64,000 nucleotides of DNA from Isoetes taiwanensis (Eukaryota; Streptophyta; Lycopodiopsida; Isoetales; Isoetaceae), in the NCBI GenBank assembly GCA_021234155.1, contig JAJEKV010000541.1, forward strand, positions 62,001-126,000, given 5' to 3'. The position numbers and the translations under genes are program-made. Shown piece by piece: positions 1,733-29,030 of this stretch; positions within the stretch are counted from its first letter, which is position 1, and every line of letters starts with the position of its first letter. Under the pieces are notes generated by a model. That model was not told the origin of the DNA. It worked only from the letters and a program-made list of their open reading frames with translations, and searched no databases.

Positions 1733-2205
1733 GCAAGTATAGCACCGACATTTCTACACGCTTGCAAGAGCCCCACGGGAACAAACGATCACGCCGACTC
1801 GAGTTTGTCAACCTTGGGACAATAAAAATGTCTCCGAGATTGCCTGGACAAGGAGGTCAAGCTGGGAGGCTATCCTTCAAAACCTCCTGGGCTGCATTGT
1901 TGCGAGACCTTGCAAGCTTTAGAATTGGGTTGCAAACCACGGGCACTATACAAATACATTTCACATTACCGGAGCAAACGGCTTTGGCTACAATTAATAT
2001 TGTGTTTGTTCTAGTCGAGGCGAGAACTTTCCGCCGCTGAATCGGGAAAGCATGAGGTAGCAGTGAAGAATCACCGCTAGTACCGAGGGAAACAGATGGA
2101 AGTTCGAGGAAGAAGTAGAGGAGCAGCCCCCAGAGCAGCTCAAGAAACTTAGCAGTGCCAAGAAACACTCGGGGCTAAGGAAAAAAAAGGAAGGTAAGGG
2201 AAATT

Positions 2206-2764
2206 TTGAATAGAAGAAACCCCGAGGAGAGCACAAAGAAAAGAAAAGGAGAAGCAAAAACTCCCGGGGTTGCAATAAAGGAGAAGAAAGTTGACAAGAC
2301 CTCTGAAAGAATAGAGGTAATAAACAGAGAAAAGTTCGTACAAGGGGTGATCTATCTTCCAGTCACATGCATGAGGCTGCCCCCTAAGAATGAAGCTGGT
2401 GAACGGCCACTTCAGGTTCAAAAAATCTACGCTGATCACTTGAGGAACCTGAAGGACCGAATAAGGAGCAATCCCAACGCTCATGTGGCCCCCATTGTGG
2501 TGCTTGTTGACAGGGAGTAGTGCACAAACCCCCAAGACTATGACAAGGAAAATGCAGAGACTTACATGCACTATGTCTTGGGGGGAAACCACAGCTTTAG
2601 AGCCAGACGGCAACTGTATAAATAAAAGAACAACCCGAGATATCTTTCAGTTCTTTGTGCAGTTTACTGTGGCCTGACAGACGAGGAAGCTAAAATTGTG
2701 GCCAATAGCACAACGCAGATAACGAGTACAAACTGAAGATGAGCATTGTGCACAGGGAGTACGT
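2206..2764 (+). CDS. ParB/sulfiredoxin-fold-like N-terminal exons of host gene (frame-broken)
   Basis: The frame starts with a lysine-rich basic region, then a motif reading VINREKFVQGVIYLPV. A segment follows with IYADHLRNLKDRI and a hydrophobic APIVVLV strand. A TAG at 2518 interrupts it, but the same frame continues through CTNPQDYDKENAETYMHYV to GGNHSFRARRQLY near 2590-2620. The GGNH-type loop after an alternating strand/helix layout is what ParB/Srx-like domains show. After about 20-50 bp of unclear intron or frameshift, another frame gives CGLTDEEAKIVA and, one shift later, NADNEYKLKMSIVHREYV, matching the usual continuation of this family as I remember it. It ends abruptly in a pentanucleotide satellite at 2765. 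The TAG sits where CAG would be expected. I infer, without proof, that it continues in the exons at 19.8 kb and 28.4 kb. Confidence 0.45.
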
Positions 2765-2955
2765 TATCTCCTATCCTATCCTATCCTATCCTATCCTATC
2801 CTATCCTATCCTATCCTATCCTATCCCATCCTATCCTACTCCCTACTCCCTACCTTACTCCTACTCCTACTCCTACTCCTACTCCTACTCCTACTCCTAC
2901 TCCTATCCTATCCTATCCTATCCTATCCTATCCTATCCTATCCTATCCTACATAT
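2765..2955. repeat. Pentanucleotide TATCC microsatellite with CTACTC core
   Basis: Two runs of the pentamer TATCC flank a central run based on CTACTC and CCTACT. Both runs have the same orientation, and the long translated frames through it are repeat artefacts. It starts directly after the last recognisable ParB-like codons. Confidence 0.97.
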
Positions 2956-5900
2956 ATAAAAATATGTTAGCTGTGGGAAAAGTGACGTGGATTGAGGACA
3001 TAAATGCACGTGGCCGACAAAAAAGATGACGTGGACGTATCGAAAAAATCCAAGTGGATGAGAGTGCTGAATGAGCGAAGGCAGAGAGAAATGTAGACAG
3101 GATTCACGACGGGAGAAGGGAGAGGCGAACGGAGCTAAGGGAGTCGTTTGGTGCAGCAATTCCGTTGTAGATGCCGGAATCTATTTAGGGAGATAGGGTA
3201 GCGAATTTAGGAAGGACGGGGGATTCCAGGTAAAACTGAACTCTTTGGAAGGGTCGAAGCAAAAGTAGAGACGCCTAATGTTCGTTTTTCCCTGTCAGGG
3301 ATGGTGTAAAGTCAAGATTAGATAAGTGGAGACGGAAGTATCGACTTAGGGTAAGAATATAATCGAGGTGAAATTTTGCTGTTTTTGCTTCTCTGTTTTT
3401 TACTGTGGTGTATTTGTGGCTGCTGTGGATAGTATCGAGGTAGCCCAGAATAGAAGAGCAGTGGAGAAAAGGAAGGAATTCGGAAAGAGGCAGTTTAGGT
3501 AAGAACATGAACAGAACGAAGTTTTACTGTTGTTTTTTTTGTTTTTGTGTACGTACACAGGAATGAATTGCTTATGTGATGATATGCTATCTTTCTCCGT
3601 TAGGAATATCGTTGGTTTGGAGTAGAATAAATGGAGGGAAAAGGATAATTGAAAAGGGAAGGAGCGATTCCAGGTAAGGGTTTCTTCGTGCATATGTGTA
3701 AGATTAAGTTGCTTATCTTGATGTATACTTTAAAGTTTTCTGTTCTCCATAGATGCGTAGTAGATGTGTAGGATGATAATATATTAGATACATACCTAAG
3801 TTAATCTTATTCTGAACTAGACGATCGAGCATAGCGACGGATTGTAGTAATATTAGGAGAAAGATGTTGGATGAGCGAGCAAAGAAAAGGGGGCGTCCAA
3901 GGGAAAAAAGTTTAGATGATCAGGATGTTGAGAGAAATAAGAAATATGTAGCACAATAATAGGGGGTTTTCTTTGTGTTTTTGTACGCTTTTCACAAAGG
4001 TTTTCCTAAGATTTCATAGCGTATTCGAATGGATGTACTAATGCGTACATCTAGAGTGCACCATTTCTTAGTCGTTGATTTAGTTTTTTTTTTTCAATGG
4101 TCCAACATCCAAGGGCTCACAACAAAAGCCCTCTTTATTTTAGTGGCTGAACATGCAAGCCTCGTGGATAGCATTTTAGGGCAAATCCAGAGGAGAGCTA
4201 GAGGTTTCATCTGCAGCCGAGCTTCAGGGAGTTTGGGAGTTCTCGAGTTCGGGTGTTTTTCTTTCTAAAATTTGTGAGCCACAGTTCATTGAGCAATTTG
4301 TAAATTCTAGGATTGCCAATTTTTAGTTGGCGGAGATGGGTTTTTCACAGGTAGGAAGAATTTTGAGGCACCAAAAGATCATATGAGTTTTGGTTAGCAA
4401 GGGCGGAAAGCGATTCATAAATGGAAACCAAAGCTTTAACGGGCAACATAGGGCTTTTATTGCACTATCTAAAACAATGAGAAAAAGGGAGTCTATGGAT
4501 TATGATGTAGTTATAGTTGGAGGTGAACCTCTTTGGCTTAGCTGCCGCTATTAAGATAAAGCAACTGCGGCATGTCTCGTGAAAGCAAGGAACTCTCGTG
4601 TGTGGAAAAAGGAGCTGAAATGCTAATTTTATCCAAGAATTGATGGGATTAAAGTTAACATGATTGATGGTAGATAATAGGATTCCTTATTTTACCATCA
4701 TGACAAGTGTTGCTATTGGTTCAAAGCTCACATTTTATGCGGAAATGTTTTGAACCAAGAGCACTGAAAGCAAACTCTCTTCCCGATTGGAAAGAACAAG
4801 GGTTGCTCACTATGCCCCGCTACTCTTCTTTTTTCTTCTACATAGTCTGAATCAAGTTCTTTTGCATTTGTGTGTTTTGGATGTAAATGTGACAAAAGAC
4901 AAATTTTGGTTTCTTTCAAGGAAACATGCTTTTAACTTGCCATCACCTTTCAAAAATGATGGCAACTCATTGATCGAGTCCTATTTCGTGTATTTCTTGC
5001 AAACATTTAATTAGTAAAGTGATGCTTATTTACGAACACTTGTAGCGTTATCTTGATAAAACTGTTTTACTTATTCGGGTTTGAGGCAAGCAGAAACCGG
5101 CCGCTAGGAGGCAAAGTTGAGGAATTTGGTGTAGAAATCTATCTTTGGATTTTACGCAGAGGGAAGTCTTGTTAGAGATTTAGCCCTTCTTTCATCAGGG
5201 TTGTGATATCATCATGTTCACCGGCCCCTCACAGGTCTTGTATGATGGGAATCGGGTAAGTGGTATAGCAACCAATGGTCATGGGGATTGCCAAAGATGG
5301 CTCGCAAAAAATCTAGCTTCCAATGTGGGATGGAGTTGCGAGGTATCTTTATTTAGTTCTAGAGTCAAGGTCCGTTTTGCTTGCCATATTCTTTTCGTAA
5401 TTGAACAGGGATCTGCAGGACGCATTACCTTGCTCGAGAAGGTTGTCGTGTTGGTTCTCTTTCCGAGAGGTACTCACCATTCTAACATAATCGCTTTTTA
5501 TCAAAACAACTTTGCTTTGGGGCTGAGTTTTGTTTCAAACGGTCAATCTTTTGGCGAAAGTGATTCATAAATTCTAATTACGTGAAAGGCTGATGCTCAA
5601 GATCGGACATATGCACCGGAATCAAAAAGTTTGTCACGAGACCTTGAATTCGAGATAGATAAGTTTGTCTTTATCAGGCAACTTTTGTGGAGGTATGGGA
5701 GGTGGACGTAAGAAACATCACCTAGTTTTGTGCTTCATACAATTGGTTGGCCCTTCACTCTGGGTACCTATGGAGGTTCTTTTCTTTATCACATGTCAAA
5801 TAGGCGGTATATAATAATCAGCTTAAAGAACCTTTCTTGTGTTGGAACTTCAGTTGTTATGGTTTAACTTTACATGTGTATGCTCGGGCAGTTGCGATTG

Positions 5901-6989
5901 GCCCAATTGTTGCTAGCCCCACAGTTTCTATTCGGTTTCTTTTGGGGCTGTGTTGAGAGAATAATGAGGAGTTGAGCTTTGTGCAGTTTGTGTGAAGCTT
6001 AGGAAGCTTGAACTCGAGGATTGTCCTATTCTATCGGGCTGAAATTGCAGCCACGTTAGATCGCTTACAATCGTTGAGAGATACATATGGCCCTAAGGCT
6101 ATGAAGCAAGAAATACAAGTGATTTTCTTGCAATGGGGCCTTAATAGAATACCCTCGAAGTTCTTGTAAAAGTTGTGCTTATTTTGGTGCTCAAGTGCTC
6201 AAGTATTTATGTTTCATTTGAGTTTATGCCCATCGATTTAAGTTGCCTTGCAATTTATAACACCCTATGCAAAGACAAATCTTTAACTTCGATTTACTTG
6301 TGGAGATGTTTGATTATTCCCACAACATATGTATCCAAGATGGCATTTTTAAATATCGACAACATATGTGCCATGGCAAAGCACATGGTTTAAGTGCTCT
6401 TCACGACTATATTGTTTTAGGCAAGGCCTTTGAAGGGCCAAATTTTTTTTAATCTAACACAAACCATTACATCTAATGTTTCCAAGTGTGATATAATGTT
6501 TGTTTTTGCCCTCGAAGGGCAAAATTTTTAAAGTTATAACGCAAACCATTACATTACACACCTTAAAATTAAATTCCCCTTAAACCCCCTTTTCTTTGGG
6601 TGCATATTCACACACGGGGACGAGGGTAGAACTAGGAGCCCTATAATTATGTTTTGTATGTACAAAATCAACACTATATAGTATGTTACCTGAAATCTTA
6701 TAGCATTTTTCAAATCTTATTATACAGTATCATAATTTCTATATATCTATACCCCACAAACGAGGAATTTTGTGTACGGTGTAGATTAAGGAATAATGGG
6801 TGAATATGCCTGTTTAACAGCTCTCGTTGCCCGTAATCACCTAGAAAACAAACAAGTAACGAATCAAGCGATGTATTTACATGGCGGCGGCCTTTAGATA
6901 ATAATCTGGTATTTGCAAAACTTGGAGGTGAAATGACGTTTACCTGAAAAAAGTATTAAAAAAATTAGTATGACCAAAATCATGATCGT
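2956..6989. other. Spacer or intron without recognisable genes
   Basis: Four kilobases of A+T-rich sequence contain only short open frames. The largest, 5214-5570 on the plus strand (118 residues), has no motif I know. A small direct repeat near 6425-6560 repeats GAAGGGC-AAATTTTT followed by CAAACCATTACAT. The left end of the Helitron should lie within roughly 6.5-7.0 kb, but I could not fix it. I read the whole stretch as intron of the host gene plus unrecognised debris. Confidence 0.5.
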
Positions 6990-7007
6990 CTTTGTGAAGT
7001 AGAAAAT

Positions 7008-10000
7008 ATGAGCGGCAAAAATTGTGCAGGTGAGCATTTAGAATATGGCATGAGAAAAAAGGGACGCAAAAAACAAAGTGGTGTGATTAATGGAAATATC
7101 GAGAAGGATGAAGAAAAAGATAGAAGCCTAAAAAGAAGTGGATGCAGCAAAAGTTTTCTTTGGCAGCGATCTCTAGACAATAATCCAGCTTTTAAGGACA
7201 TTGAGGATATTGGTTTGAAATCAATTTCACGGAAAAGATGTCGATCAAAGGGAAGTGAATTGAGCGAAACAGAAAGCAAGTTTGACGAGAAGGAATGTGG
7301 CCACAAGGAAAATTATTGGAAATGATTGGCATCAAAAATGAGAAACAAGAGTGGAAAGAGAGGAGTTAGATGTGAATGGAATAAGAAGTGTGATATTTGT
7401 GGTCTGGAATTGCTAAACGTAGAAAGAAAAGGGTTTTGCTGCAACAATGGAAAATGGAGACTCCCTCGGCTGCCTGAACTGCCGCAATGCATACACGAAT
7501 TATATTCTGATCCTAAATTCTCTAGAGACTCTCGAAAAGTAAATAATTTATTTTGCTTTACTGTTCTTGGTGTGAAAGGGTTATTTGTCCATCTGAAAAT
7601 ACCATCGTCCGTTAGTATTATGGAAAGAACATATCATAGACTATTACCAACTTCACAAGAGGGAAACCCTCTTCGATGATATATATATGATGAATCAGAG
7701 CGATATGACATGGCACGTGCACATCTAGTTAAATTTGAATGGGTATCACAGATAGCTAGCATGCTGAATAGCGTAAATCCATTCGCTCGAGCTTTGGAAA
7801 ATGTTACACAACTTGAAAAAAGGGATGTTATGCTGAGTATTAATGGGACAACTAGCAAGGATGAAATAGCTGCTATTGCCGATGTAAGCGATACTGTTAC
7901 CATCGAACCAAGAAAGGTTGGTTTTTGGTTGCAGCATGAAGGATCACCAAAATTTATAAGTATTTTAGACCCTTTATATGAGACATTACAATATCCATTG
8001 TTCTTCCCGCATGGAACATTAGGCTGGTATCCACGCAATGAATTTAGTCTTTCCCAAATTGAATGGTATAGGCAATGAATATTACATGAACCAAGGCTCG
8101 CCCAATTGGGCCGCCTTTGTGGCGAATATTTAGTTGATATGTTTTCACGGACTGAGGAGGAGAGATTAAATTACATATCAACCGAAGGGTTTACGAAAAA
8201 GAGCAACTCTAATAGAGATGATTTTGGGGACAATAGCAATGATTCAGGGGATGATATTATTCTGCCATCGTCGTTTTTGGGCTGGCGACGGTGGTGTGCA
8301 TCTCAAGTAGCAGACGCACTTGCATTAGCGAGATCAAAGGGACATCCAACCTTTTTTATAACAATGACTACGAATCCGGATTGGCATGAAATTCGTCAAA
8401 AAATAGAGCAGGGTAGAACAGCAGCAGATGTTCCAGTAGTTGTTTGTCGAGCATTCCATGCGCGTTTGCATGAACTTAAACAGCTTTTGAAGCGATATTT
8501 CGGATGTATTTCCTACATAATACATGTTATAGAGTTCCAAAAGAGAGGTTTACCTCACGCACATTTGGTGCTACGGACAGAAATTGATATTCCAATAAGT
8601 CCAATTGACGAAATCATTTGTGCAGAACTACCAGCAGATGTATCTGAGCGTATAAAAGTTGAAAAATATATGATACATTACCATTCATCTAGATGCTCTG
8701 ACGGCAGACCGTGTTGTTGGAATTTTCCTAAACGTATCACTACATCTACTTATATTGATGAAAAGGGTTATGTCCAATACAAAAGAAGACATGAAGAAGA
8801 CAGGTCTATCGTGCCATACAATCAGTTCTTATTGGAGAAATTGGACTGCCACATAACAGTTGACATTGCATCGACTGTCCACATATTCTCATATCTATAC
8901 AGTTATATTTATAAAGGATTTGACTCCGTTAAGTATCAGCTTCGAGCAAAAGACAAGCAATCAAGAACAAAGGCTGTAAATCTTTCTGATGGTCCAGTTG
9001 ACACAAAGAAGTGTGAAGACGGCCAAAAACAAGACCATGAACAGAAACGTCCAAAAAATGAAGTGCATGACTATCTAAATGCACGTTACTTATCCGCAAC
9101 GGAAGCAGCTTGGCGAATACTGGGCTATAATGTTACTAAGAAAACACCGGTTGTTAAATGTCTTCCATTACATTTGCCAGGTGAGAATAAACAGCAATTC
9201 AATAGAAAAGAAAAGTCGTCGTCGCTATCATTGCTAGATAGGTATTTTTTGCGGCCAGATAATTCGGAGTTTGATAATCTAACGTATGTAGAGTACTATG
9301 AAAAATATATGCTGCTTCCCAACAAACTGCATTTGAGAACAGAACAGGATAGTGTTGAGATATACGATGGTCACAATCCAGTTAATATTGTCAGAAATCG
9401 TGGAAATAAAACCTTGGTATGCCGAGTCCGATTATTACTTCCACGTGCAGGTGAGATATTTTATTTGCGGCAATTGCTTCTACACAAACCGTGCAGATCT
9501 TGGACTCATGCGAAAACGGTAAATAATGTGGAATACCCTATATAACAAAAAGCAGCAGAAGCGTTCGGCCTAACAGATGCAACAAATGAGTCTGACTTGG
9601 TTATGGAAGAAGTTGTCAGTTTAGCATTAACACCTAGTCAACTCCGTTTTCTGTTTGCATTGTTGTTAATGGATCAGGCACCTGCAACAGAATTATGGGA
9701 TAAGTATAAAGATGTAATGGCAAAAGATATGATTGACAGGTATATAGATAATCATGAGCTGGCCTACAACGAATGCTTGCATTTGATAAATGAGACATTG
9801 CTTCAACATTCTACAAGTGTTGCTGCGTTCGGACTGCTAATAAAAACATATATGGGTAGAGAAATTCCCAATGAACTTTCCCAATTTGCAGAAATAGACA
9901 CATATAAAACGACCTTTAATCAGATGTTGGCATCATTCAACAAAAATCAGCGACAAGTATTTGATGTTATACAGTCCATGATAGACGGAAAGGATGCTAT

Positions 10001-11300
10001 CAGACCAATTTTCATCGACGGAAAAGCGGGTACAGGTAAAACATACTTGCTTAATGCAGTGTGTTTATATACAAGAGCATCCAAGCTGATAACATTGCCA
10101 TGCGAAACAACAACACTTGCTGCATTACTTTATCCCGGTGGAAGAACAGCTCATTCATTATTCCAGATACCCGTAATAGAAAACAATGTAAATGTGCATT
10201 CATTGATGCCCAAGAAATCTGGATATGCAGACCTCCTCATGAAAAGCAGTGTAATAATATGGGATGAATTTCCAATGGCGAACAAGGCTGTGATTCTGGC
10301 AGTAAATAATCTACTTCAAGATCTATGTGAAAATAAAGAACCATTTGGAGGAAAATGCATCATAACAGCAGGTGATTTTAGACAGGTAGCTCCCATCGTT
10401 CGAGGAGCAGGCAAGACTGCGGCTATCAATGCATCGGTAAAATCATGCAGTTTATGGAATCACTTCGAGGTTCTAACGTTACATGAGCCAGTCCGTAATG
10501 CAGAAGATGAGGAGCTGATAGATTATGTAGACCAAATAGGAGAGGATTTCACAAATCCAACTGTCTCGATGAAATTGTTTGCAACAACCACAAGCCTTGA
10601 TGATGCAGTCAAATTTCTTTATCCATCGGCAATATTGAAAGACTCATCACAATCTGAAAAACGTGCATTCTTATCTGTACTTAATCGTAACGTCGATGAG
10701 TTCAATAAATATGTACTTTCGCTGTTAGAGACAGAAGAAACTAAATACTACAGCTTGGACCATATCACCGAGGATGATCAACGTATTGAAGATCATCCAT
10801 ATGCTAATCCAGATTTTCTAATGCATTTCAAACATCCAGGAATATCAGAGCATGAATTATCTCTCAAAGTTGGTTCCATCTGCCATATAATGAAATCATT
10901 AGACAGAGAAAAAGGATTAGTGAAGAATGCAAGAGTTGTCATCGAAGAACTCCACAAAAGATTTGTGATTGTTAGAGTTGTTGGAAGCACCGCAAAATCA
11001 GCTAATGCACGCCATGCAACATACCGAGTTGATTTTTTTTATCAGCCAGACAACAGACCATGGACAGTTCATAGACGACAGCTCCCTCTTCGACTTGCGT
11101 ATTCTACAACGTTCAATAGTTGCCAAGGTCTTACACTAGATAAGATGGTACTGGATTTGAGAGACGATATGTTTGCACACGGACAACTATATACAGCATT
11201 AACACGCATACGAAGAAAAGAAGATGTTCTTATTCTGTTGCGTGAAGAAAACACATCACTTACAACAACAAACATAGTTTATGAAGAACTACTTCAATAA
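7008..11300 (+). pseudogene. Helitron Rep-helicase (RepHel), one frame with four internal stops
   Basis: One reading frame of 1431 codons is unbroken by frameshifts, but stops occur at 7323 (TGA), 7677 (TGA), 8076 (TGA) and 9543 (TAA). In order it shows a basic N-terminus, a Cys-rich finger with GFCCNNGK, and the Helitron-like N domain with PFARALENV and LFFPHGTLGWYPRN. The HUH endonuclease has PHAH with His at about residues 517 and 519, and tyrosines at about 629 and 633 in YLYSYIYKG (lysine is usual where Ser-632 stands). The PIF1-type helicase has Walker A GKAGTGKT at about 1005-1012, Walker B WDEF at about 1085, GDFRQVAP, and a C-terminal CQGLTLDK then HGQLYTALTR. Rep nicks and joins single-stranded DNA during rolling-circle transposition and the helicase unwinds it. 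Three of the stops are TGA, and at 7323 and 8076 arginine (CGA) would fit, as expected from decay of methylated CpG. It is probably not functional as it stands. Confidence 0.93.
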
Positions 11301-11487
11301 TCAGATGCAGGTAGGCGCGCTCCATGTCTTTCATTGTTTATAGACCATTAATCAATTAAATTATTATATTGCCATAATATCAATCCCATCTCCTAATTTG
11401 CATTCATGATTATTATCCTTTTTATAACTAAATCATATTTTCTACAAACTACCTCGCAGATCAGCTTACATTCTAAGAATATTTTAC

Positions 11488-12401
11488 ATGGCGAGCACAT
11501 CCACAAAGACAATCTGCCCTCCACATGAACTAAGTCCATACGAGCTTAATTGGACAATCAAAGTCCGGGTGACAGCAAAAACACCTCTAAGATCTTACAA
11601 TAACACCCATGGCCAAGGGAATGTCTTCAGTGTTGAACTTATCGATGAACATGTGAGATACTTCCACTTTACTAGTCAAACTTTTCATTTTGCATTATGT
11701 TACTTACACATATTGTTTACAGGGAACAGAAATACAAGCAACAATGTTTAAAGAGGCAGCACAAATGTTTTATGACATATTGCAAGTTGACAAGGTAGTA
11801 TTCAGACCAAAACAGCAAGCTTATACAAGCTCAACAATCTCCCAGTTTTTTTGTTAATAATGTGATGTACTATATTTCAAAAGATTTACTCTCTACGTCA
11901 AGCAAATAGAAAGATATACACGCGGAACAATGATTACCAAATCATAATAAATACACGCTCAATTATTGAGGAAATCACAGAGGACCAGCAAATTCCTAGA
12001 GGATCGCAATGCTTCACTGAAATCAGCCGACTACCGCAATACATTAACAGCAAAACCCTTCTTGGTAAGCTTAAATACTTTTTCTCTCTTCAAACCACTC
12101 TATTTGTAGCTCTATATAACTGACATTTCCTTTGCTTCCATGGACATTATCGGCATTGTTTGTCATGTTTCTTCAACAACATCCATCACGAAGAAAGATA
12201 GACAACCGCCAATTCCAAGAAAAAGATATCACGATTCTAGACCAAAGGTATTGTAACATTTTAAATTATTAGTCACATATTTGAATCAATGCACATACGT
12301 TAACATAAAATTGTTTTGGAAAATCGCAGCCAAACCAAAGTCAACATCACACTTTGGAATGAACTTGCTTTAAATGATGGAAATCAGCTGCTGCAAATGA
12401 T
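11488..12401 (+). CDS. RPA70-like single-strand DNA-binding protein, 5' exons
   Basis: Exon 1 (11488-11652) encodes the first OB fold (NWTIKVRVTAKTPLRSYNN, then GNVFSVELIDEH). A GT-AG intron leads to exon 2 (11723-11794), reading GTEIQATMFKEAAQMFYDIL. Exon 3 (about 11868-12064) gives NNDYQIIINTRSIIEE and one small frame slip. Exon 4 (12144-12247) reads DIIGIVCHVSSTTPVRRKID in the better copy. Exon 5 begins at 12330 (QTKVNITLWNELALNDGN) and is cut at 12401 by the LINE. These match the DNA-binding domains A and B of replication protein A large subunit. Plant Helitrons commonly carry such genes, thought to bind the displaced strand. The acceptor of exon 4 reads TGG here but CAG in the second copy at 20.3 kb. 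Confidence 0.88.
12394..12401. repeat. Target-site duplication, left copy (CAAATGAT)
   Basis: CAAATGAT ends at the left LINE boundary and recurs after the poly(A) tail as AAATGAT at 18194-18200. In the duplicate the match is the full CAAATGAT (20561-20568 and 26357-26364). Removing the LINE and one copy restores a continuous RPA reading frame (LLQMIDQVPNQYFP). Confidence 0.9.
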
Positions 12402-12473
12402 CTCGACATTCCTTGTCATAACAATTTCAGTGTCCTTGCTGACCTAAAGGATGATTGCACTGAAGGTCTTATG

Positions 12474-13590: not shown

Positions 13591-13625
13591 GTTGGTCTCC
13601 ATTTTCCTTCATCCTATTCTTCTCA

Positions 13626-17430: not shown

Positions 17431-17489
17431 ACAACCTCGGATCGACCTTAGAAGAGAATTCGCATTCATGTGGAGCGGCTTCTTGATCA

Positions 17490-17860: not shown

Positions 17861-18200
17861 TTTCCACATCCTATCACCATCACCTCACATTTTCCTTAAT
17901 TTCACATTTTGACTCATGATTTTCCTCTCGAGTTGCTATCTTCCTGGCCAATACTATTATGTTTTTTTTATGTCACCGGTCATTCATGGACATTACGGCA
18001 TGGTATCTTAATCATGTTTCAGCTTCCAGACTTCGGGACTTTAGATCTAAGTTGGTTTTTAATTTACCATTGTATTCACTGCTACTTGTATTTTCATTGT
18101 CATACTACTATAGTGACAATAATTTCCTTTGTATCTTTTTTACATAATTAATGGAAAAAACTTCATTCTCTCAAAAAAAAAAAAAAAAAAAAAAAATGAT

Positions 18201-19255
18201 TGACCAGGTGCCAAATCAATACTTTCCAAGGTTTATTAACAGTTATTTTTTTTTATACATAATTGCTGCTGATCATTGTATCTGCTTTCCAACAGGTATT
18301 GCTTTATCGACAACCAACACCAGCACCATACAAATAAATCCAGATATTCCTGCTGCTACCGAATTACGCTCATGGTTATCTACCTACGCTCTTTACCTCT
18401 TTTCCAATTTACACATGTTTTCTTTCATTAATGCATTTTCCATTATAGGTACAACACCCATGGAAAAAATGCAACATACATAGATACAGAAGCAGCTTTA
18501 CTCCGTGCAAACGTAAACGAAACATGTCAACCTCTTTGCGCTCAACGTTCATTCATAGCAGACATCATGCAACCAATGATTGGCAAAGATAAGGTATTTA
18601 AATCATAACTGGTTCGTTACTTTGACTATTTAAGACCTACTTATCCTCGTTGCAGCCTGCCTACTTCAACATCAAATGCCACATCAGCTTTATCGATCCA
18701 CAGCAGCCTATGTGGTACCAGACATGCATGGCATGTAACAAAAAAGTAATCAGTCAAGACAGCAATTTCTGGTGCAATGATTGTCATAAAAACACGGACA
18801 GCTCCAAAAGATACTTTTAATTTCAGTTACACCATCCATAAACAGACTAACCACATTGTTCATTATTTGCTAGGTACATATTATCATGCAATCTAATTGA
18901 CACAACTGCAGAAATACGAGCTACTGCATTTAACCAAGAAGCAGAACAAATTCTTGGCTGTAGCGCTGAGCAACTATACAGAATGAAAAGCCAGGTCGGT
19001 AATTCTGCACAAGATTACACGAGGCAATACCGTGATAACATCAAATCCTTTTACTTGCAGGAATCTTTCCAGCAAACATACCATACACAACTCAAGAAAG
19101 CAACGTGGATACCCAAACTATTTCGTGTTAGTGTACTCCAAGTCGACTTCAATTATGATAAGAGGCGAAAAGTGATTATTCGCCAAGTCGTTCCGATAGA
19201 CTGGACTACTGAATGTAGGTATATATTACACCAAATACAGTCTCTTCAGACCTAA
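18201..19255 (+). CDS. RPA70-like protein, 3' exons beyond the LINE
   Basis: The exon cut by the LINE resumes at 18201 (DQVPNQYFP). Later exons give GIALSTTNTSTIQINPDIP (from 18296), WYNTHGKNATYIDTEAALLR (18449-18593), and the zinc-finger exon near 18660-18820 with Cys-x2-Cys then Cys-x2-Cys (CMACNKK, FWCNDC). The last exon (about 18873-19255) reads YILSCNLIDTTAEIRATAF and ends in QSLQT. This is the C-terminal domain of the RPA large subunit, which binds ssDNA and holds the trimer. Splice acceptors are clear at 18449 (ATAG) and 18873 (CTAG). With the LINE in place the gene should be dead unless the LINE is spliced out. Confidence 0.88.
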
Positions 19256-19759
19256 CTTCTCGGCTCAGTTTCATTGTACAACATATGCTATTCGCTGTTT
19301 ATAACTACTTCCCCTGTATATATTACACGAAATACAGTCTTTTCAACCCTAGCTTCTCGACTAAGTTTCATTGTATATATGTTATTTGCTGTTTGTAATT
19401 ACTTCCCCTGTATATATTTTTCATTTTCAATCTACGACACTCTATTTCAGCAAACAAACGTTGTTTTCAAATCAGCTTTAGATAGCTCTTTACAGCAACT
19501 AACCTTGACACCCATTTCTTTCTTGCTATCTAATTGAATGATAACCTATTAAATATCCACACCAATAAGCAATAACACAATAAAATATATATAATTCATA
19601 CAATTGCAACACAACGCATAACTTCACGTCCATTTACGTAAATATTATTACAATTATATTAGAGAGTAACAACATACATGAAAATCTATCATTCACACAT
19701 ATTTTCGCGTTCAACACATCGTACACTTCAAACCAAAATATCATTCACTGCTTAACCAA

Positions 19760-19791
19760 TGCGGCGGCAACGCCGCCGCATTCCAGTCTTG
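19760..19791 (+). other. Helitron 3' terminal hairpin and end
   Basis: A perfect 9-bp stem (TGCGGCGGC) with loop AAC is followed by TTCCAGT and then CTTG. Position and form fit the subterminal hairpin of Helitrons. A similar hairpin followed by CTTGTAT lies at 48271-48304. The duplicate at about 27920-27950 is degraded. Host-gene coding sequence starts within a few bases of the end. Confidence 0.65.
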
Positions 19792-20177
19792 TATTTAAAG
19801 AAAAGTATGGCGAGGACTTAAAGAAACCAGCCAACTCTTTGGAGCTTAAGGAGGCGTGTGCAATAGAGTGCTGCCTAAAGTACGATGAGGCAAACAAACG
19901 GCAGTCGCTTATCAGCCACGACAACTGGTTTCAGCTTGCCTTCAGAGATGGTCGAGTATGTTAGTTTTGTATTCCAGAATACGCTTTGTGTGCTTGTTGC
20001 CCTTGAACGCTCTAACAGCCTTCTATTTTCGAGTGCAGATCTGGGAGGTGCAGAACGAAATTTTTAATATGTTCGAAAGGGGAGAGCTGAAGAGTAAGGG
20101 AAAGGTGTCCGACAAAAAGAAGGGTGCCGACGTCCCAAAAAAAGAGATGACAATTACAGTGTGGAGGGAGTTGCAGG
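19791..20177 (+). CDS. Middle exons of the host gene (between ParB-like and methylase parts)
   Basis: Exon 1 (about 19791-19955) encodes YGEDLKKPANSLELKEACA, then ECCLKYDEANKRQSLISHDN and WFQLAFRDGR, ending in phase 0 at a GTATGT donor. An 83-bp intron contains a TATTCCAGAATA palindrome. Exon 2 (from 20039, after GTGCAG) reads IWEVQNEIFNMFERGELKSK, a lysine-rich linker, then EMTITVWRELQG. The two exons join cleanly in frame. I recognise no domain here. I connect it to the ParB-like exons because of strand, order and a rural setting without other gene candidates; this link is inference. Exon 2 is cut by the duplication breakpoint at 20177. Confidence 0.6.
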
Positions 20178-20568
20178 GCTTCACTGAAATCAGCCGACTA
20201 CCGCAATACATTAACAGCAAAACCCTTCTTGGTAAGCTTAAATACTTTTTCTCTCTTCAAACCACTCTATTTGTAGCTCTATATAACTGACATTTCCTTT
20301 GCTTCCAACAGACATTATCGGCATTGTTTGTCATGTTTCTTCAACAACACCTGTACGAAGAAAGATAGACAACCAGCCAATTCCAAGAAAAGATATCACG
20401 ATTCTAGACCAAAGGTATTGTAACATTTTAAATTATTAGTCACATATTTGAATCAATGCACATACGTTAACATAAAACTGTTTTGGAAAATCGCAGCCAA
20501 ACCAAAGTCAACATCACACTTTGGAATGAACTTGCTTTAAATGATGGAAATCAGCTGCTGCAAATGAT
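20178..20568 (+). pseudogene. RPA70-like exons, second copy, up to LINE insertion
   Basis: It contains the end of exon 3 (fused at its left to host-gene exon sequence by the duplication junction), the intact exon 4 with a proper CAG acceptor at about 20310, and exon 5 up to CAAATGAT at 20561-20568. It lacks the first OB-fold exons, so it is a partial gene created by the duplication. Confidence 0.85.
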
Positions 20569-20637
20569 CTCGACATTCCTTGTCATAACAATTTCAGTGT
20601 CCTTGCTGACCTAAAGGATGATTGCACTGAAGGTCTT

Positions 20638-21775
20638 ATGGAGTCAAATGTGAAAACAAATGATAATGTCAACTTTTCTGCCTCCCCCATCATTCAAGAC
20701 ATTTTTGATCCCATCTTTCCTGCTAATTCATCTCTTGCTCAGCCCACACAAAACAATCTCATTGACCTCTCACCACCTACCTTAATTGAACTTCACTCCC
20801 CCCCATTAAATAATCATCATGAGATTATTTCCCCTTACACAGAATTCCTGATAAAAGAATTGTCAGTCATGCCATCAGTTGGTGTTGAGGAAGTTCAGCC
20901 AAATGGATGCTCTCATATGCAAATTCAACAACATTCTATGGTCAGTGATTTCACAAACACATCAGCCTCATGTGACAGAATTACAGATCAAGACCTACAA
21001 GGGAAATTCCAAAATACCGCAGGGTCATCTCGGGGGTATTTCATTTGGTCACTCCTCAAGAGTATCTAAGGAAATTGAGGTTCAACATTCTATGGTCAGT
21101 GATCTCACAAACACATCAGCCTCATGTGACAGAATTACTGATCAAGATCTACAAAGGAAATTCCAAAATAATGCAGGGGTCAGCTCAGGGGTCAGCTCAG
21201 TGGTCAGCTCAGTAGTATCTAAGGAAATTGAGGTTCAAGATTTCAACACTCAGCAAGTCAACTCCCAACTTGGAGACAAAACCAGGCAAGATCCTTCCAT
21301 TCTAGTCATTGCTTCTTATAATTTAAATAATAAAGTTCTTTCAAATGACAAAGATCCCCTCGTTCTCAAGGATATTGATGGAAGTACTAATTATGATAAA
21401 TCCATCCCCGCCTCCCTTTCTCTAATTTAGATTCTCCCAATTACATACCATTTGCAAATCTAAATTTTGGTGTTGTTCTCATGCCTCAAACTCGACACGA
21501 TCTTTGATTTGGATAAAGAAAATAACAAACCTCCTCAAAACTTATCTTCCTCCTCGATATTTGGGAAGATGACTCCTTTATATCAGCAATCCTCTCATAG
21601 GTTGTGAGAATAATCATAATTCCAATGGCTTGAATAGACGTGGACCACCAAGAAGCATAAGAATAAATCCAAAAAGTCCAAAAGGTCTCTTCGTTATCTC
21701 CGGTACTCCAATTTTGCTAATACAAGAAATAGCTCTAAAAGAGTTACTAGGAGCCATAATCTTTAAGTTGGTCTC
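20638..21775 (+). pseudogene. LINE ORF1-like region, copy B
   Basis: The first 143 codons (20638-21069) are open and longer than in copy A, showing an N-terminal half rich in Asn, Pro, Ser and Leu. The 156-bp internal repeat starts near 20930 and 21086. From about 21340 the frame is broken many times, at places where copy A reads CAG or CTG. Same uncertain ORF1 assignment as in copy A. Confidence 0.6.
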
Positions 21776-21802
21776 CCATTTTCCTTCATCCTATTCTTCT
21801 CA

Positions 21803-24800
21803 ATGAAGATTCTTACTTGGAACCTTAGGGGAATAAAAGGTCCCCTTAAAAGAAGGAGGGCTATTTCCCAAATAAGGGAATACAACTCGATATCATTCTT
21901 CTTCAAGAGCTAAGGCTACCAAACTTTGAATGCTCGAACTTAGGTATTTGGATTGGCCCCTGGTCATTCTTCCATTTGGATTGAAGCCTCGGGAACTTCG
22001 AGGCATATGTATTATCTGGAAGAAATTTAAACATAATATTGTTTATAACAGATCCATGCAAAAGCCGGGTAAGTCGTTACTCTTGTTCATGATGATCTAA
22101 CCTTTGGTGTGATCAATATTTATGCTTCTCTTGATTCCGAGAAAGTTAGAGAACACACTTGGCATGACCTCAATGATGGCTTCTTTTCTCAATCTTGTCA
22201 AACATGGATTATTGCAGGTGATTTTAATAACACACCTAGCTGGGACCTTAAATGTGGCAAAAATCTTAACATGTCTGCTTCTGAGAGGGTAAATTGGGAT
22301 AACTTCCTTGATCAGCATCTCCTTAATCACATCCCATCCTCTACTGCCAGATACACTTGGTCCAATAAACAAAGTGGTAATGCCCGAGTTTTTTGCACTC
22401 TGGATAGATTCTATATCAGTAACATGGCTAATTCTTTCGGGACAATCAAGATGGTCTTTAGTGATGAGTCTACTTCTATATCAGACCATCAACCTCAATT
22501 TCTATCTACCAAACATGTCATCAACATGAAGAGATCTGGAAATATTCCTTTTAAATTAAACTGTTCTCTGCTTGACTCAGATAGATTCAATTCTGAATTT
22601 ATAGCCTATTATAACTCTCTTCCAAGGGTTACTGCTCTTAATTCCATGAAATCTTTCTACTCCAACATCAAGCTGTCTAAATCTTGGATCAAAAATTGGT
22701 CAAAGATTTTCGTGCTTCTAAAATTGCAGAGAAAAACAATCTGCTTCAAAAGATGAAAGATGTCAGATTGAATCTCCAATCTGACCCTTTAAACTCTGAG
22801 CTTCACTCTATGGAAGAGAATCTGGAAATGTCTATCAAATCTATGGAAGAATTGGAGGCTAAAGGGGCAGCCATCAAATGCAAATTAAAATACCATGCTC
22901 AAATGGATAGCTCCAACTCAAAATTTTTCTACAGGGTTGCTAAAAATAGGATTTTGAGAAATCAACTCTCTGCAATTGCTACTGAAGATGGATCTATTAT
23001 CTCAGATCATGGCCATATCTCTAATTATTTCCATGACAAATACAGGGATATTTTTACCAAACCCATGGACAACTTTCCGATCTCTGTAGGGCAACAATTG
23101 CAGGGATTTCCTAAACAATCTGCCAAACTTAACTTCCATATCTACATCCCCTGAAATTGAAAACCTTCCCACTGAAAATGAAGTCTTGTCCATAATTAAA
23201 GATCTTGGGAAGAATAAAAGTCCGAGCCCGTGATGGCCTTCTGTGGAATTTTATATTAAATGCAGGATGTTATCAAATTGGATCTAATGCACATGATTCA
23301 TGGATTCGGAATCTCAATCATTTACATCCATCTATTTGCTCGTGTTTTGTCACCATGATTCCAAAAAGTAGATAATCCCAAAGTTCAATGATTGAGGCCA
23401 ATTTCTTTAACTAATACCTCCTATAAAAATATGTGCTAAGATCATTGCCAATAGAATTAAAGGTCATCTTCAAAAGGTCATTAGTTATTGCCAATCTGCA
23501 TTTTTACCAAACAGGTTTATTCTTGATAACTACATTGCTGCCATGGAGGGCCTCCACTGGAATTCTTTATCAAAGAAAAATTGCATTCTCTTGAAACTCG
23601 ACTTTTCCAAAGCCTTTGACACAGTAAGATGGGATTTTTTGGAGTTTGCCTTATCTAAGCTTGGTTTTTCCAGCAAATTGATAAAGTTAATTCTTGGTCT
23701 CAATCAAAGATCTCAATCTGCTATTCTTATCAATGGATCTCCTACCAGATTTTTCCCGTTAGCCAGAGGTGTCAGGCAAGGCTGCCCTCTTGCCCCTTAT
23801 TTATTTCTGGTAGTTGCTCAAATGCTTACATCTGCTATTCAATTTCATCAAAGTAATAATGATATTTATGGTCTCACTCTGCCTGATAATTCTTCTCTAA
23901 CCATCTCTCAATATGCAGATGATACCTTCACATTCCTCCAAAATGATCCTAATAATATTGATTTCTTTTTCAAGATCATAGATTCTTTCAGTGCTGCCTC
24001 TGGTGTTCACCTCAACAAAGATAAATGTGTCATCATTGGGGATATTACTTCTGATAATATCTCGGGTATTAAATGTGTGCACTCTAATGATTCAACTAAA
24101 CTCTTAGGCATGCCTTTGTCCACAAACCCTTCTATTAAAGGCCTGTGGTCTCCTATTGTCTCTCGGATAAAAAAGAAATTGTCTAATTATGGCAGTTATT
24201 TATCTTTAGCTGGCAGAACTATTATTGCTAACTCTGTTATTGCCAGCTCCCATATTTACTTCTCTTCAGCCCTTCTTGCTCCAAAATCTGTCTATCAACA
24301 GCTTGAAAGAATTATTAGAAATTTCATTTGGGGCAAGCATCATATGGTCAACTGGAAATCCATTGCTAGAAGTAAAACTCAAGGTGGTCTTGGATGTAAA
24401 AATCTTCTTTATCAAGGCTATGCTCTAGCTGGTAAATATGTCTGGAGATCTCTCTTTCATGGCAATAATCCAGCCTCTATCTTTATCAAATACTGGCTGT
24501 CTGGCAGCCATATTAAAGGTCATCTATCTCTTGTGCACCAATTACCCTCTTCAGCTTTTTACAACTTACAACCTGGTGCAAATTCATCCCCTCTGATGAG
24601 AAACATTATCCTGGCTTGGAATTGGTCTCATAAAGCTTTCAACCATGTGGATCTTCATAAATGTCACCTTAGCTCTTCTATCTTCTCGAACCCTATGCTT
24701 TCTAGGGACAACTCATCTCCTCTTGTCGTTATTCACCCCGGGATTTATAAGAAGTGGAGTAATCATAATATCCTCGACCGGAGACGTAATAGCGGTGGAT

Positions 24801-25588
24801 TACTTGGACCGCAAAAAAAAAAATAAGGGAACCTCTTCCGGGAATCTTTTTAAGCATATCACTCAATCTCAAGAATCATAACTTGGAGGCATGCTCAAAC
24901 TCAAATATTGACTAGATTCTAAATAATAAAGGCAGTTTACAAAGTCTCCGGCATTTACAAATTTTTTGAATAAGCACACAGCCTCAAAAGCTAAAACTTT
25001 TGGAATATCTCTCGAGGAATCTGGAGCTTTGAAACTTTTTAGAAGTGTGTGGAATTCCAAGCTAACTCCCAAGATTGAATATTTTATCCTGGTTATTGGC
25101 TAATGGTAGTGTTCCTAATCTTCTCTCTATTGCTAGACATCAAGCCGAATTTTGCTCCTATAAATGCCCATTGTCCTCTTCAATGCAATCAAATGGAAGA
25201 CATGCTACACATTTTTTATCTGTCCTAATTTGAACTCTTTATGGAATTGGTTTCATTACCATTTTGCCACACCTAAGCCTACTTCCATGCTGAAGTTTCT
25301 TTCAAATAATGATGCTTTCTTAAATTCCTTATCCTTCACTATTTTATGGAATATTTGGAAGCGCGAAATAGATGTCTACATGGCAAATATTCTGTCTCTT
25401 GCACTTGGATTAAGTTACACATTATTTATGATCTCGAATTGGTGACCACTTGTAATATAAACATAAAAACAATCATTTTGATGCCGTGGAACAAACTTGG
25501 GTGTATTTTATGGTTCTTTTAATCTTTTTTCGATTAAATTGTCATGATGAATTCACTAACACCGATTTATATCCATCGAGTTATATGA
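21803..25588 (+). pseudogene. LINE ORF2: endonuclease-reverse transcriptase, copy B (broken)
   Basis: The endonuclease start matches copy A, but 21885-22135 is frameshifted. The stretch 22109-23150 is the cleaner of the two copies. From 23543 to 24826 a single frame of 427 residues spans the core of reverse transcriptase, with LKLDFSKAFDTVRWDF, RQGCPLAPYLF and YADD at 23912-23923. The zf-RVT part after 24.8 kb is heavily broken, with lost or gained bases. Reading the two copies together shows that neither set of breaks need be real. I do not reconstruct a product. Confidence 0.92.
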
Positions 25589-26364
25589 ACAACCTCGGAT
25601 CGACCTTAGAAGAGAATTCGCATTCATGTGGAACGACTTCTTGATCAAGAGATAGTTTATTTCAAGGCCTTTGAATGAGAGAATTGTTAGAGGCGGGGAC
25701 CCGATGTGGACATTCTAGACATACCGGAGAGGGATATTGATTTGGACAATTGAGTTCTAGCAGAGAGGCCTACCTTATGCATGAGTTGTGGTGGTTCCTA
25801 GGCGATTTGGCGGCAATATGGTGAGCATCAATTTGATTACTATAGAGTACGCTATTATTACCACCGCACGGGAGTATGGGCGATGCATATGGAACTCTTA
25901 TACTGAGGGCAACAAGATACTCGATACTTTGATTCAGAACCGAACCGGGAAATAATCACATCATGATTATCCAAACCGGACTACCCTTCCTTTTTCCAAT
26001 ACATTGACTCATATCATTTCTAATTTCCACATCCTATCACCATCACCTCACATTTTCCTTAATTTCACATTTTGACTCATGATTTTGCTCTCGAGTTGCT
26101 ATCTTCCTGGCCAATACTATTATGTTTTTGGCTGTCAGCTGGTCATTCATGGACATTACGGCATGGTATCTTAATCATGTTTCAGCTTCCAGACTTCGGG
26201 ACTTTAGATCTAAGTTGGTTTTTAATTTACCATTGTATTCACTGCTACTTGTATTTTCATTGTCATACTACTATAGTGACAATGATTTCCTTTGTATCTT
26301 TTTTACATAATTAATGGAAAAAACTTCATTCTCTCAAAAAAAAAAAAAAAAAAAAACAAATGAT

Positions 26365-27415
26365 TGACCGGTAGCCAAATCAATACTTTCCAAGGTTTAT
26401 TTTTTTTTTTTTTTATACATAATTCTGCCGATCATTGTATACGCTTTCCAACGTATTGCTTTATCGACAACCAACACCACACCATACAAATAAATCCGGA
26501 TATTTCCTTTAACAACTCTTAATTACGCTCATGGTTATCTACCTACGCTCTTTACCTCTTTTCCAATTTACACATGTTTTCTTTCATTAATGCATTTTCC
26601 ATTATAGGTACAACACCCATGGAAAAAATGCAACATACATAGATCTGTACGACTTTACTCCGCGGTAAACGAAAGCGAAACATGTCAACCTCTTTGCGCT
26701 CAACGTTCATTCATAGCGGACATCATGCAACCAATGATTGGCAAAGATAAGGTATTTAAATCATAACCGGTTCGTTATTTTGACTATTTAAGACCTACTT
26801 ATCCTCATTGTACCGCCTACTTTAACATCAAATGCCACATCAGCTTTATCGATCCACAAAGAGCCTATGTGGTACGGACATGCATGGCATGTAACAAAAA
26901 AGTAATCAGTCAAGACAAAGCAATTTAAGGTGCAATGATTGTCATAAAAACACGGGGACTCCAAAAGATACTTTTAATTTTCGGCCACCATCCATAAACG
27001 CGGACTAACCACATTGTTCATTATTTGCTAGGTACATATTATCATGCAATCTAATTGACACAACTGCAGAAATACGAGCTACTGCATTTAACCAAGAAGC
27101 AGAACAAATTCTTGGTCATGTAAGCCGGAGCAACTATACTGTAATGAAAAGCCGGTCGGTAATTTCTGCACAAGATTACACGAGGCAATACCGTATAACA
27201 TCAAATCCTTTTTACTTGCGGAATCTTTCCAGCAAACATACCATACACAACTCAAGAAAGCAACGTGGATACCCAAACTATTTCGTGTTAGTGTACTCCA
27301 AGTCGACTTCAATTATGATAAGAGGCGAAAAGTGATTATTCGCCAAGTCGTTCCGATAGACTGGACTACTGAATGTAGGTATATATTACACCAAATACAG
27401 TCTCTTCAGACCTAA
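26365..27415 (+). pseudogene. RPA70-like 3' exons, second copy
   Basis: These are the same exons as 18201-19255, with damaged triplets: the acceptor before the exon at about 26455 has lost CAG, and the zinc-finger exon is frameshifted near 26820-26960. The last exon recovers from about 27230 and ends with the same stop. It is a by-product of the tandem duplication. Confidence 0.85.
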
Positions 27416-27954
27416 CTTCTCGGCTCAGTTTCATTGTACAACATATGCTATTCGGGTCCTTTTATAACTACTTCCCTCAGTATATATTACAATCTAAATC
27501 TTTTCAACCCTAGCTTCGACTAAGTTTCATTGTATATATGTTATTTGCTGTTTGTAATTACTTCCCTCAGATATATTTTTCATTTTCAATCTATTTACAC
27601 TCTATTTCAGCAAACAAACGTTGTTTTTCAAATCAGCTTTAGATAGCTCTTTACAAACAACTAACCTTTGACACCCATTTCTTTCTTGCTATCTAATTGA
27701 ATGATAACCTATTAAATATCCACACCAATAAGCAATAACACAATAAAATATATATAATTCATACAATTGCAACACAACCATAACTTCACGTCCATTTACG
27801 TAAATATTATTACAATTATATTGGGGAGAGTAACAACATACATGAAAATCTATCATTCACACATATTTTCGCGTTCAACACATCGCACACTTCAAACCAA
27901 AATATCATTCATCTTAACCAATGGGCGTGTTAACGCCGCAAGATTCCAGCCTTT

Positions 27955-28353
27955 GTATTTAAAGAAAAGTATGGCGAGGACTTAAAGAAACCAGCCAACT
28001 CTTTGGAGCTTAAGGAGGCGTGTGCAATAGAGTGTTTGCCCTAAAAGTACGATGAGGCAAACAAACGGCGGGCCGCTTATCAGCCACGACATTAACCGGT
28101 TTCAAATTTTGCCTTCGAGATGGTCGAGTATGTTAGTTTGTATTCCGTATCACGCTTTGTGTGCTTGTTGCCCTTGAGCGCTCTAATGCCTTCCATTTTC
28201 GAAAGCGCGTGACCGGGAGGTGCGTAAGCTAAATTTTTAATATGTTCGAAAGGGGAGAGTGAAGAGTAAGGGAAAGGTGTCCGGACAAAAAGAAGGGTGC
28301 CCGGCGTCCCAAAAAAAGAGATGACAATTACAAGTGTGGAGGGAGTTGCGGTG
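27955..28353 (+). CDS. Duplicated middle exons of the host gene
   Basis: The exons at 27955-28127 and about 28209-28353 duplicate 19791-19955 and 20039-20177. Here the coding sequence contains small indels at CAG/CTG sites and the second acceptor reads GCG instead of CAG. The second exon runs straight on into unique sequence at 28354, so this copy, not the one at 20 kb, is joined to the 3' part of the gene. Confidence 0.6.
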
Positions 28354-29030
28354 GCTTCGATATGGATTTGCTAAAAGGCTCCTTAAAGTTGTTGACAAAT
28401 ACTTAATCGGAAGAAATGTCCAAAGAACCGCACAAAGCAAGTTGTATTTTAAGTTTTGTTTGTTATTCTAATAATCTCCTACTTGCTCGTGAAGGCAAAA
28501 GTGTATTCGAATACACTTTTTCTTTCCTTTGTAAAGTATTACGAATTGCGGGACCCAAGTGCAAAGGCGTAATTGTCAATCATTACGAATACGTAAGCTA
28601 ATTAACCATCTTCCGATATGTTCTCACGTCGTGAGATTGGGTCCTTGATGCTTTCTTGCCTGGGTACAACAATAGCATGTGCACTTAAAAGGGTCGCGAA
28701 TTGTGTTGTTATTGACATTGATAAAGAGGTCAAAACTTTATCAAGATGAGGTTGTCCGCCTTTACCAACTCTACCGTGATGAAAATCAAGAGTTTGGTGC
28801 CAAATCATCATCGATTTTTGCCAAGATGACATCCTCGAGATACAGCCCCTTTACGGCTCTACGGAAGATGAAGCTACCTTTTTGCGAGGCTTAAAGTAGA
28901 TCTAGCTACTATTTCTGAAGAGATTGTAGACACCGGTAAAGATGAAACAATGACAATGGAGCAAACCTGCAGAAGGACCAACACGGGGACAAGCAAACAA
29001 CATCTTGAGGACTTTGATTTAGACCTCTGA
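28354..29030 (+). CDS. 3' exons of host gene with DNA-methylase-like AdoMet motif
   Basis: Directly after the duplication one frame reads GFAKRLLKVVDKYLIGRNVQ. An intron-like stretch with the palindrome at 28497-28520 follows. Next comes GPKCKGVIVNHYEYVS, a broken link, then WVLDAFL and, one frame slip later, GTTIACALKRVANCVVIDID (to about 28726). VLD.F-GTT-hydrophobic helix-ID.D is the layout of motif I of N4/N6 adenine or cytosine DNA methylases. The slip falls at a GCCTGGG where GCTGG would keep frame. The C-terminal frame begins near PLYGSTEDEATFLRGL and ends DFDLDL at a TGA (29028). I could not find the catalytic DPPY/NPPY motif; it may lie in a missed exon. A ParB-like domain joined to a methylase is known from phages and mobile elements; a plant nuclear version would be unusual. 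Confidence 0.45.

Follow-up and report, generated by a model that had tools for sequence, protein, structure and literature searches.

Palindrome arrays specific to family in DNA transposons with a ParB-like and methylase gene from the land plant Isoetes taiwanensis

How does a gene that appears to join a ParB-like domain to a DNA methylase come to lie in the nuclear genome of a land plant, and on which DNA would its product act? The question was raised by a stretch of 64,000 nucleotides from Isoetes taiwanensis (assembly GCA_021234155.1, contig JAJEKV010000541.1, here C265:62001-126000; hereafter the window), in which a sequence-only reading had seen one host gene of about 27 kb, domesticated or horizontally gained, with a Helitron in its introns. 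Searches of the whole assembly (1,658,258,908 bases in 1110 contigs) led to another answer. Specifically, the feature in the window is a dead, broken copy of a multi-copy DNA transposon of about 8 kb, and each element of this kind carries two arrays of a palindrome that is specific to its family. With somewhat better than even confidence, we favour the view that the ParB-methylase binds and marks the palindromes of its own element, so that copies are recognised as self.

A multi-copy transposon with two divergent genes

The motifs that had been read at both ends of the proposed gene are real. GGNHS and GLTDEEA share a reading frame at about 2.58-2.70 kb of the window, and the ParB-like piece that holds them is 78-91% identical to 149 other genomic places (the best 150 of 2831 candidate places were scored genome-wide); 125 of the 150 scored places are free of stops over the matching stretch, their open frames being 166 to 587 residues long, and the ParB exons of two copies reach up to 99.4% nucleotide identity. 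The motifs VLD.F, GTT-ACALKR and CVVIDID at about 28.64-28.73 kb were also recovered, split as they are, and the piece matches another copy's C-terminal methylase exon (tblastn, expect value E=3e-17). For this methylase end the best 150 of 2884 candidate places were scored. When these best-150 lists were combined, 46 pairs were found within 20 kb; in 45 of them the methylase follows ParB downstream on the same strand, at a distance of 2.07-2.56 kb in 37. The two pieces therefore belong to one gene, as had been proposed. Its order is the ParB-like exon, further exons, an exon VHGDCTKL...VIADLPYG with motif IV, and a last exon with motif I.

A second gene, matching the DUF7869 profile (PF25273) at E=2e-49, was divergent from and upstream of ParB in 26 of 28 pairs from the best-150 lists, and about 0.5 pairs are expected by chance. 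A separate count of 17 out of 18 ParB-DUF7869 pairings took 41 of the 150 DUF7869 places, picked with an eye to pairs, and is not unbiased. The product of this gene is probably the transposase. In the PDB its exon matched only Nop56-type proteins at E>=0.04, which we judged to be chance, and no paper naming DUF7869 was found in the open-licence PMC literature.

The ends of the element were defined by comparing copies. Two copies, each fetched with 20 kb, are alike, apart from some gaps, for about 8.1 and 7.9 kb and no farther, and the element ends in terminal inverted repeats (TIRs) that read AACA[AC]GATTGC..ATTAAACGGGAG. The boundary was fixed by eye on these two copies, which have the target-site duplications (TSDs) AACA and AAGT, and was then applied to 20 further copies. 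For 11 of these, at least one end could not be located in the fetched pieces; all nine with both ends located have an exact 4-bp TSD, each a different word, which brings the total to 11/11 when the two boundary-defining copies are included. The element is a class II DNA transposon with TIRs and a target duplication of constant length, of the cut-and-paste type and with two divergent genes, the DUF7869 gene and the ParB-methylase gene. Target duplications of 4 bp are a feature of the Sola superfamily, and membership in it is plausible from the TSD together with the gene order, TSD length alone being no proof.

Palindrome arrays and protein families

Each focal element has two AAAGTGTATTCCGGAATACACTTT arrays: the first separates the divergent genes and the second occupies the intron that follows the ParB exon. 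The sites are often 41-42 bp apart. At least five sites (with at most four mismatches) were found in all 30 ParB loci, the window copy included. The 20-bp core of the palindrome occurs 1925 times in exact form across the genome, its reversed control 0 times, and the exact 20-bp palindrome is absent from IMG/VR. Loci were also picked by the palindrome itself (the first contigs listed, about one per cluster, excluding clusters by known copies on C23, C50 and C91), and 21 of these 22 are similar to the element beyond the arrays themselves (20 of 21 distinct loci, as L002 and L003 overlap; L095 shows no resemblance). In the control, 2 of 38 window pieces resemble the element, and both are element pieces. 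When sites were anchored on one half-site (189 half-sites from 28 loci for one array and 181 from 26 loci for the other), the other half held 1.4-1.5 bits per position and the spacers 0.4-0.5. The spacers vary between the two arrays and among copies and the palindrome is constant.

As a side observation, the G of the central CG, which is the first base of the second half-site, is the least conserved base of that half (0.80-0.81 in L006-L035). This is as expected if the CG is methylated and deaminating.

Related families were approached through the DUF7869 gene, whose four best matches (L102, L103, L104 and L105) were read; three ParB families were sampled in all. L102 and L103 have a ParB 49% identical to the focal one and carry GTATGAATTCATAC in both array places, with five exact sites each, and L105 has 16 exact GTATAAATTTATAC sites in both places and a decayed ParB piece. 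Among nine further DUF7869 intergenic pieces, five have GTATAAATTTATAC arrays (3 to 16 exact sites) and one has CTATGCGCGCATAG; of 36 window pieces taken as a control, one had 3 near-copies of a 14-bp palindrome and the rest at most 1. At L107 and L112 the GTATAAATTTATAC arrays have the DUF7869 place on one side and, on the other, a ParB place that shares 58-59% identity with the L102 family; on C4, two GTATAAATTTATAC arrays enclose a ParB exon with 51% identity to the focal exon and 63% to that of the L102 family. A fourth class, CTATGCGCGCATAG, was found at L110 and L115 (C907), in arrays often about 41 bp apart beside the DUF7869 gene. Across the 30 focal loci, exact sites number 138 for the TCCGGA class, which is their own, and zero for the other three.

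Genome-wide, with the reversed control for comparison, the counts were 7218 versus 0 for GGTATAAATTTATACC, 1551 versus 0 for CTATGCGCGCATAG and 64 versus 11 for GTATGAATTCATAC. In a search with the L102-family ParB (142 of 3189 candidates scored), six of the eight places 83-100% identical to L102 were within 4.5 kb of a listed GTATGAATTCATAC site; of the remaining two, the place on C986 has no listed GTATGAATTCATAC site nearby and that on C1067 is outside the sites listed. Across the three ParB families, clustered palindromes thus stand next to the gene and are specific to the protein family, the L102 array being mixed. Three of the classes have GTAT-N6-ATAC in common and all four have TAT-N6-ATA. 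From these four examples we infer that the palindrome may consist of a common part and a family-specific six-base centre.

What may bind and mark the palindromes

Profile searches, which the sequence-only reading had named as a check, answered differently for the two domains. The methylase end of another copy matches N6_N4_Mtase (PF01555) at E=1e-15, with 58.7 bits versus a cut-off of 26.7 (L037:377-868), whereas the ParB-like part was recovered only as DUF6551, at 14-18 bits versus a cut-off of 26.8, so that the curated threshold for a ParB/Srx-like domain is not reached. DUF6551 matched the window piece at E=0.0021, 13 of 14 copies at a best E of 0.0025 and the L102 family at E=0.03, and each match spans the GGN[HT]S..GLTDEEA stretch. 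In an hhalign comparison with three plasmid ParB proteins, which pairs GGNHSFKARRQL with GGNTRLAILREL, the probability was 75 versus 0.2 for the control, with E 2.5e-5 over 80 columns; the three proteins had come up as weak tblastn matches, and diversity within the family profile is low. These matches support a ParB-like first domain and are not proof of it.

In plasmids, tblastn gave four records at E 0.3-6, of which three are annotated as ParB family protein and one is unannotated. No tblastn match was found in phages for a 63-residue piece or the 239-residue ParB exon, and none in the IMG/VR scan with alignment or in the GTDB scan. A single match of an IMG/VR scan, on a strand without coding sense (L001), was judged to be chance, as were the Na/K-ATPase beta subunits (E 0.04-1) that alone came up in a PDB search with the ParB piece or profile.

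The methylase end matches nine solved proteins at E<=0.01, those named being MboIIA, RsrI, CcrMI and DpnA, and profile matches to solved methylases in the motif I region range from E 7e-9 to 2.4e-4. It also matches 833 phage records, and those listed are mostly annotated as DNA methylases. The enzyme is probably of the beta class, and N6-adenine is predicted as a likelier product than N4-cytosine because the nearest solved relatives are MboIIA, RsrI, CcrMI and DpnA. The lack of a DPPY or NPPY motif had been held against the methylase on first reading. This holds for the window copy, which has lost the exon, and does not hold for other copies, where the motif is present as DLPY: among 22 copies, 18 are readable and 13 of them have DLPY, with DLRY, DLSY, HLPY, NLPY and NLSY in one copy each.

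If the ParB-methylase marks its own element, the ParB-like part would bind the element's palindromes as ParB binds parS, and the methylase part would mark the bound palindromes, probably by adenine methylation. Marked copies would then be recognised as self, being either shielded from host silencing or licensed for the transposase; alternatively, the mark might regulate the divergent promoters. Binding, methylation and a benefit to the element are all steps that we infer. Palindrome and protein seem to have changed in step among related families, and a wider proposal follows these lines: in one land plant, each of several families would have a ParB-guided N6-adenine (or N4-cytosine) methylase that marks its own TAT-N6-ATA palindromes and not those of its rivals. 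We offer it tentatively, as falling a little short of an even chance. If true, transposons would run a eukaryotic epigenetic code of self and non-self, with a family identity resembling restriction-modification.

Several observations weigh against self-marking by the ParB-methylase. The ParB assignment itself rests on profile matches under the threshold and on a comparison with templates picked as weak hits. Selection on the ParB exon counts in favour of the proposal, since the ratio of non-synonymous to synonymous substitution rates (dN/dS), obtained from those 16 of 30 fetched loci with an intact exon, has a median of 0.055 and a maximum of 0.28 (112 of 120 pairs usable), but these values are biased downward by the choice of intact copies similar to the window protein; we read them as suggesting a gene that was kept working during the spread of the element, with some copies recent. 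The methylase exon is under weaker constraint, with a median of 0.32 and a range of 0.03-1.25 (9 of 22 sequences), and its motif IV is DLPY and not DPPY, so activity could be altered. The link between array and protein has gaps as well. The intergenic array of L102 and L103 is mixed, with one exact GTATAAATTTATAC site each and intermediates; L104, picked by its DUF7869, shows no ParB and no array in 7 kb; three of the nine DUF7869 intergenic pieces (L111, L113 and L114) are without an array; and no ParB was found in the 2.4 kb examined at the CTATGCGCGCATAG class. Of 50 listed GTATGAATTCATAC sites, 27 are near no scored ParB place and 23 are within 4.5 kb of one, including a site that stands alone beside a ParB only 58% identical to that of L102.

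The main rival is that the DUF7869 protein or host factors read the arrays, as transposase-binding iterons or as a bidirectional promoter or enhancer, while the ParB-methylase acts elsewhere. It takes this place since DUF7869, at 62-64% identity in L102-L105, likewise differs from family to family, and the palindrome class would co-vary with it just as well; moreover, one array occupies the stretch between the divergent genes, the expected location of regulatory sites, and the CTATGCGCGCATAG class is accompanied by a DUF7869 gene but by no ParB in the 2.4 kb examined. We nevertheless regard it as unlikely, given that the second array is in the ParB-methylase intron, away from the termini and from the transposase promoter, and that the sites are long clustered palindromes, as expected of ParB-type or methylase targets.

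Another possibility is that the methylase is catalytically changed through its DLPY motif and serves only as part of a DNA-binding protein, with no base modified. The prevalence of DLPY, the five other forms seen once each and the looser constraint on the methylase exon relative to the ParB exon would fit such a change. Its probability seems low to us: the motif I region is conserved among aligned copies and matches N6_N4_Mtase at 1e-15, and the predominance of one motif IV form argues for retention.

The palindromes might also be passive, satellite-like tandem repeats, homogenised by conversion and functionless, which would account for the period of about 41-42 bp that the tandem arrays show at many loci. 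We find this highly improbable, as the palindrome is held while the spacer drifts within arrays, the spacers differ between arrays and copies, and other families retain the two array positions but with another palindrome. Finally, a single 27-kb host gene has practically no probability left and is refuted for the window copy: its two domains do share a strand and one ancestral gene, and a gene with a ParB-like and a DNA-methylase part does exist in this plant nuclear genome, but the copy number, the TIRs and 4-bp TSDs at the element ends, and, in the window copy, the Helitron in an exon, the stops and the lost exon led us to reject it.

Parts of this picture have precedents. In bacterial ParB-parS systems, parS sites form clusters of palindromes grouped beside the gene, as the arrays do here, and the GGN-type motif and following segment of plasmid ParB proteins (L099-L101) align with the element's domain, which, unlike them, is fused to a methylase and encoded by a DNA transposon; no ParA was noticed, no profile search having been aimed at it in intact copies. 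The beta-class adenine methylases M.MboIIA, M.RsrI, CcrMI and DpnA share the C-terminal motif I region; they are of the DPPY type, in contrast to the DLPY and attached ParB-like domain found here. ParB-methylase proteins with this domain pair in green and red algal transposons were reportedly treated by Iyer in 2011 and Petroll in 2025, according to a passage that cites both, in a paper where transposon-borne ParB-methylases are described as possible self-marking proteins (PMC12477816). Both the genes, for algal transposons, and the self-marking idea are thus already published; no target named for the proteins was noticed. Its Sola1-1_Ec32 element of Ectocarpus has an accessory gene, on the strand opposite the transposase, that encodes a ParB-like and an N4/N6 methyltransferase domain; compared by description only, it differs in being 21.5 kb long and in a brown alga, versus about 8 kb in a land plant, and the string 'palindrom' is absent from the main text (PMC12477816). 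What is new here is the presence of two palindrome arrays per element, specific to the family. In the open-licence PMC literature, no report of land-plant ParB-methylase transposons or of family-specific palindrome arrays was found.

About 290 scored ParB places (from the partly overlapping lists of 2831 and 3189 candidates) now have candidate targets, namely family-specific palindromes in fixed positions that are held while their surroundings drift. What ParB-methylases bind and mark thereby becomes directly testable, in principle with native long reads, and the Isoetes taiwanensis assembly was built with Nanopore reads (PMC8566536). If the proposal is true, a bacterial-style DNA-marking system is used by transposons in a vascular plant.

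The window copy and its Helitron

The copy in the window is dead: its ParB exon is split by a Helitron, it lacks the exon with DLPY and its reading frames are disrupted (Table 1). The frame slips that had been noticed at both ends are real decay, with two in-frame stops in the ParB-like part and frame changes in the methylase part, whose pieces at 28.6-29.0 kb are in three frames. This part closes with FDLDL and a stop at 29028-29030, and the AATAAA seen earlier follows behind it at 29100-29105. Approximately 1.25 kb of the element, including the exon with DLPY (motif IV), is gone between 28536 and 28551, and that exon has no tblastn match at E<=0.01 in the window or in the 8 kb to its left. 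Pfam scans covered window positions 1-9900, 27900-37800 and 37000-46900 on the + strand and 1-3000 and 28000-44400 on the - strand; the window's own decayed methylase pieces gave no N6_N4_Mtase match, and three window pieces matched nothing in PHROGs. To the left, the element extends beyond the window to about C265:61075, with an internal deletion (L040 alignment), and its left end was not found near that position.

Table 1. Features of the window copy and of a second, fragmentary copy (positions in the 64,000-nucleotide window)
Feature	Position	Strand	Basis or remark
Probable 5' part of the divergent DUF7869 gene	1..640	-	Open reading frame (ORF); blastn of window 1-1060 versus another copy (copy a), 90%; tblastn match of the DUF7869 exon left of the window
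Intergenic palindrome array	1001..1359	.	6 exact AGTGTATTCCGGAATACACT, 1 with one mismatch, 1 with four; spacing 41-67 bp
Remains of the ParB-like exon, first part	1598..2766	+	Start approximate; one comparison drew on 14 of the 30 ParB loci and the window
ParB-like domain	about 2308-2733	+	Two in-frame stops inside
Helitron in the ParB exon	2767..19791	.	Insertion point GTTA|TATTTAAAG
Tandem duplication of 8.17 kb	12011..28358	+	12011-20182 / 20178-28358, 94% identical; exon piece 19792-20182 copied too
ParB-exon tail resuming after the insertion, with part of the next intron	27956..28536	+	Begins FKEKYGEDLKKPANSLELKEACAIE
Lone decayed palindrome, remnant of the intron array	28498..28519	.	
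Decayed C-terminal methylase exon with motif I (VLD.F...GTT.ACALK...VDID)	28551..29030	+	blastn to copy a 10376-11216
Right TIR, end of the element	29362..29386	-	AACACGATTGCAAATTAAACGGGAG on the - strand
Second, fragmentary copy in the opposite direction, left end with TIR	39422..39674	-	Related palindromes at 38832-39311

Nearly all of 2767-27955, where plausible exons had been read, is an inserted Helitron, partly duplicated in tandem; apart from the duplicated end of the exon and beginning of the intron at 19792-20182, no gene piece of the element lies in it. The insertion is in the exon and not, as had been supposed, in an intron: copies L007 and L031 show the empty site GAGTACGTTATATTTAAAG, whereas in the window GAGTACGTTA and TATTTAAAG are separated by 17,025 bases. 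Helitrons insert between A and T, begin with TC, encode Rep/helicase proteins and end in a 3' hairpin followed by CTRR. The insert is such a Helitron: it begins with TC, sits between A and T, matches the Helitron_like_N profile at E=5e-33, has Rep/helicase ORFs at about 7.7-11.3 kb and ends in a strong hairpin, but with CTTG rather than CTRR. The hairpin has z=-6.15 at the first copy of the Helitron end and z=-1.05 at the duplicate (27.9 kb), where it is mostly lost. The 8.17-kb tandem duplication is later than the insertion; it doubled the Helitron's right-hand portion, with the L1-like ORFs nested there, and the tail of the exon.

Within the Helitron, a fragment of ETF-ubiquinone oxidoreductase (ETFQO_UQ-bd, PF21162, E=1.9e-5 at 5715-5819 on the + strand; about 4400-5900 by reading) looks like a gene capture by the Helitron. 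What we take, from ORF reading and resemblance, to be an RPA-like piece and an L1 are at 11.5-12.1 kb and 13-17.4 kb, respectively. Elsewhere in the window there are a zf-RVT remnant of a long interspersed nuclear element at about 33.3-33.5 kb on the + strand (E=9e-8), a Gypsy-like integrase remnant at 43049-43891 on the - strand (rve E=0.001, under the cut-off) and a 1.9-kb tandem duplication, 80% identical, at 58232-61987.

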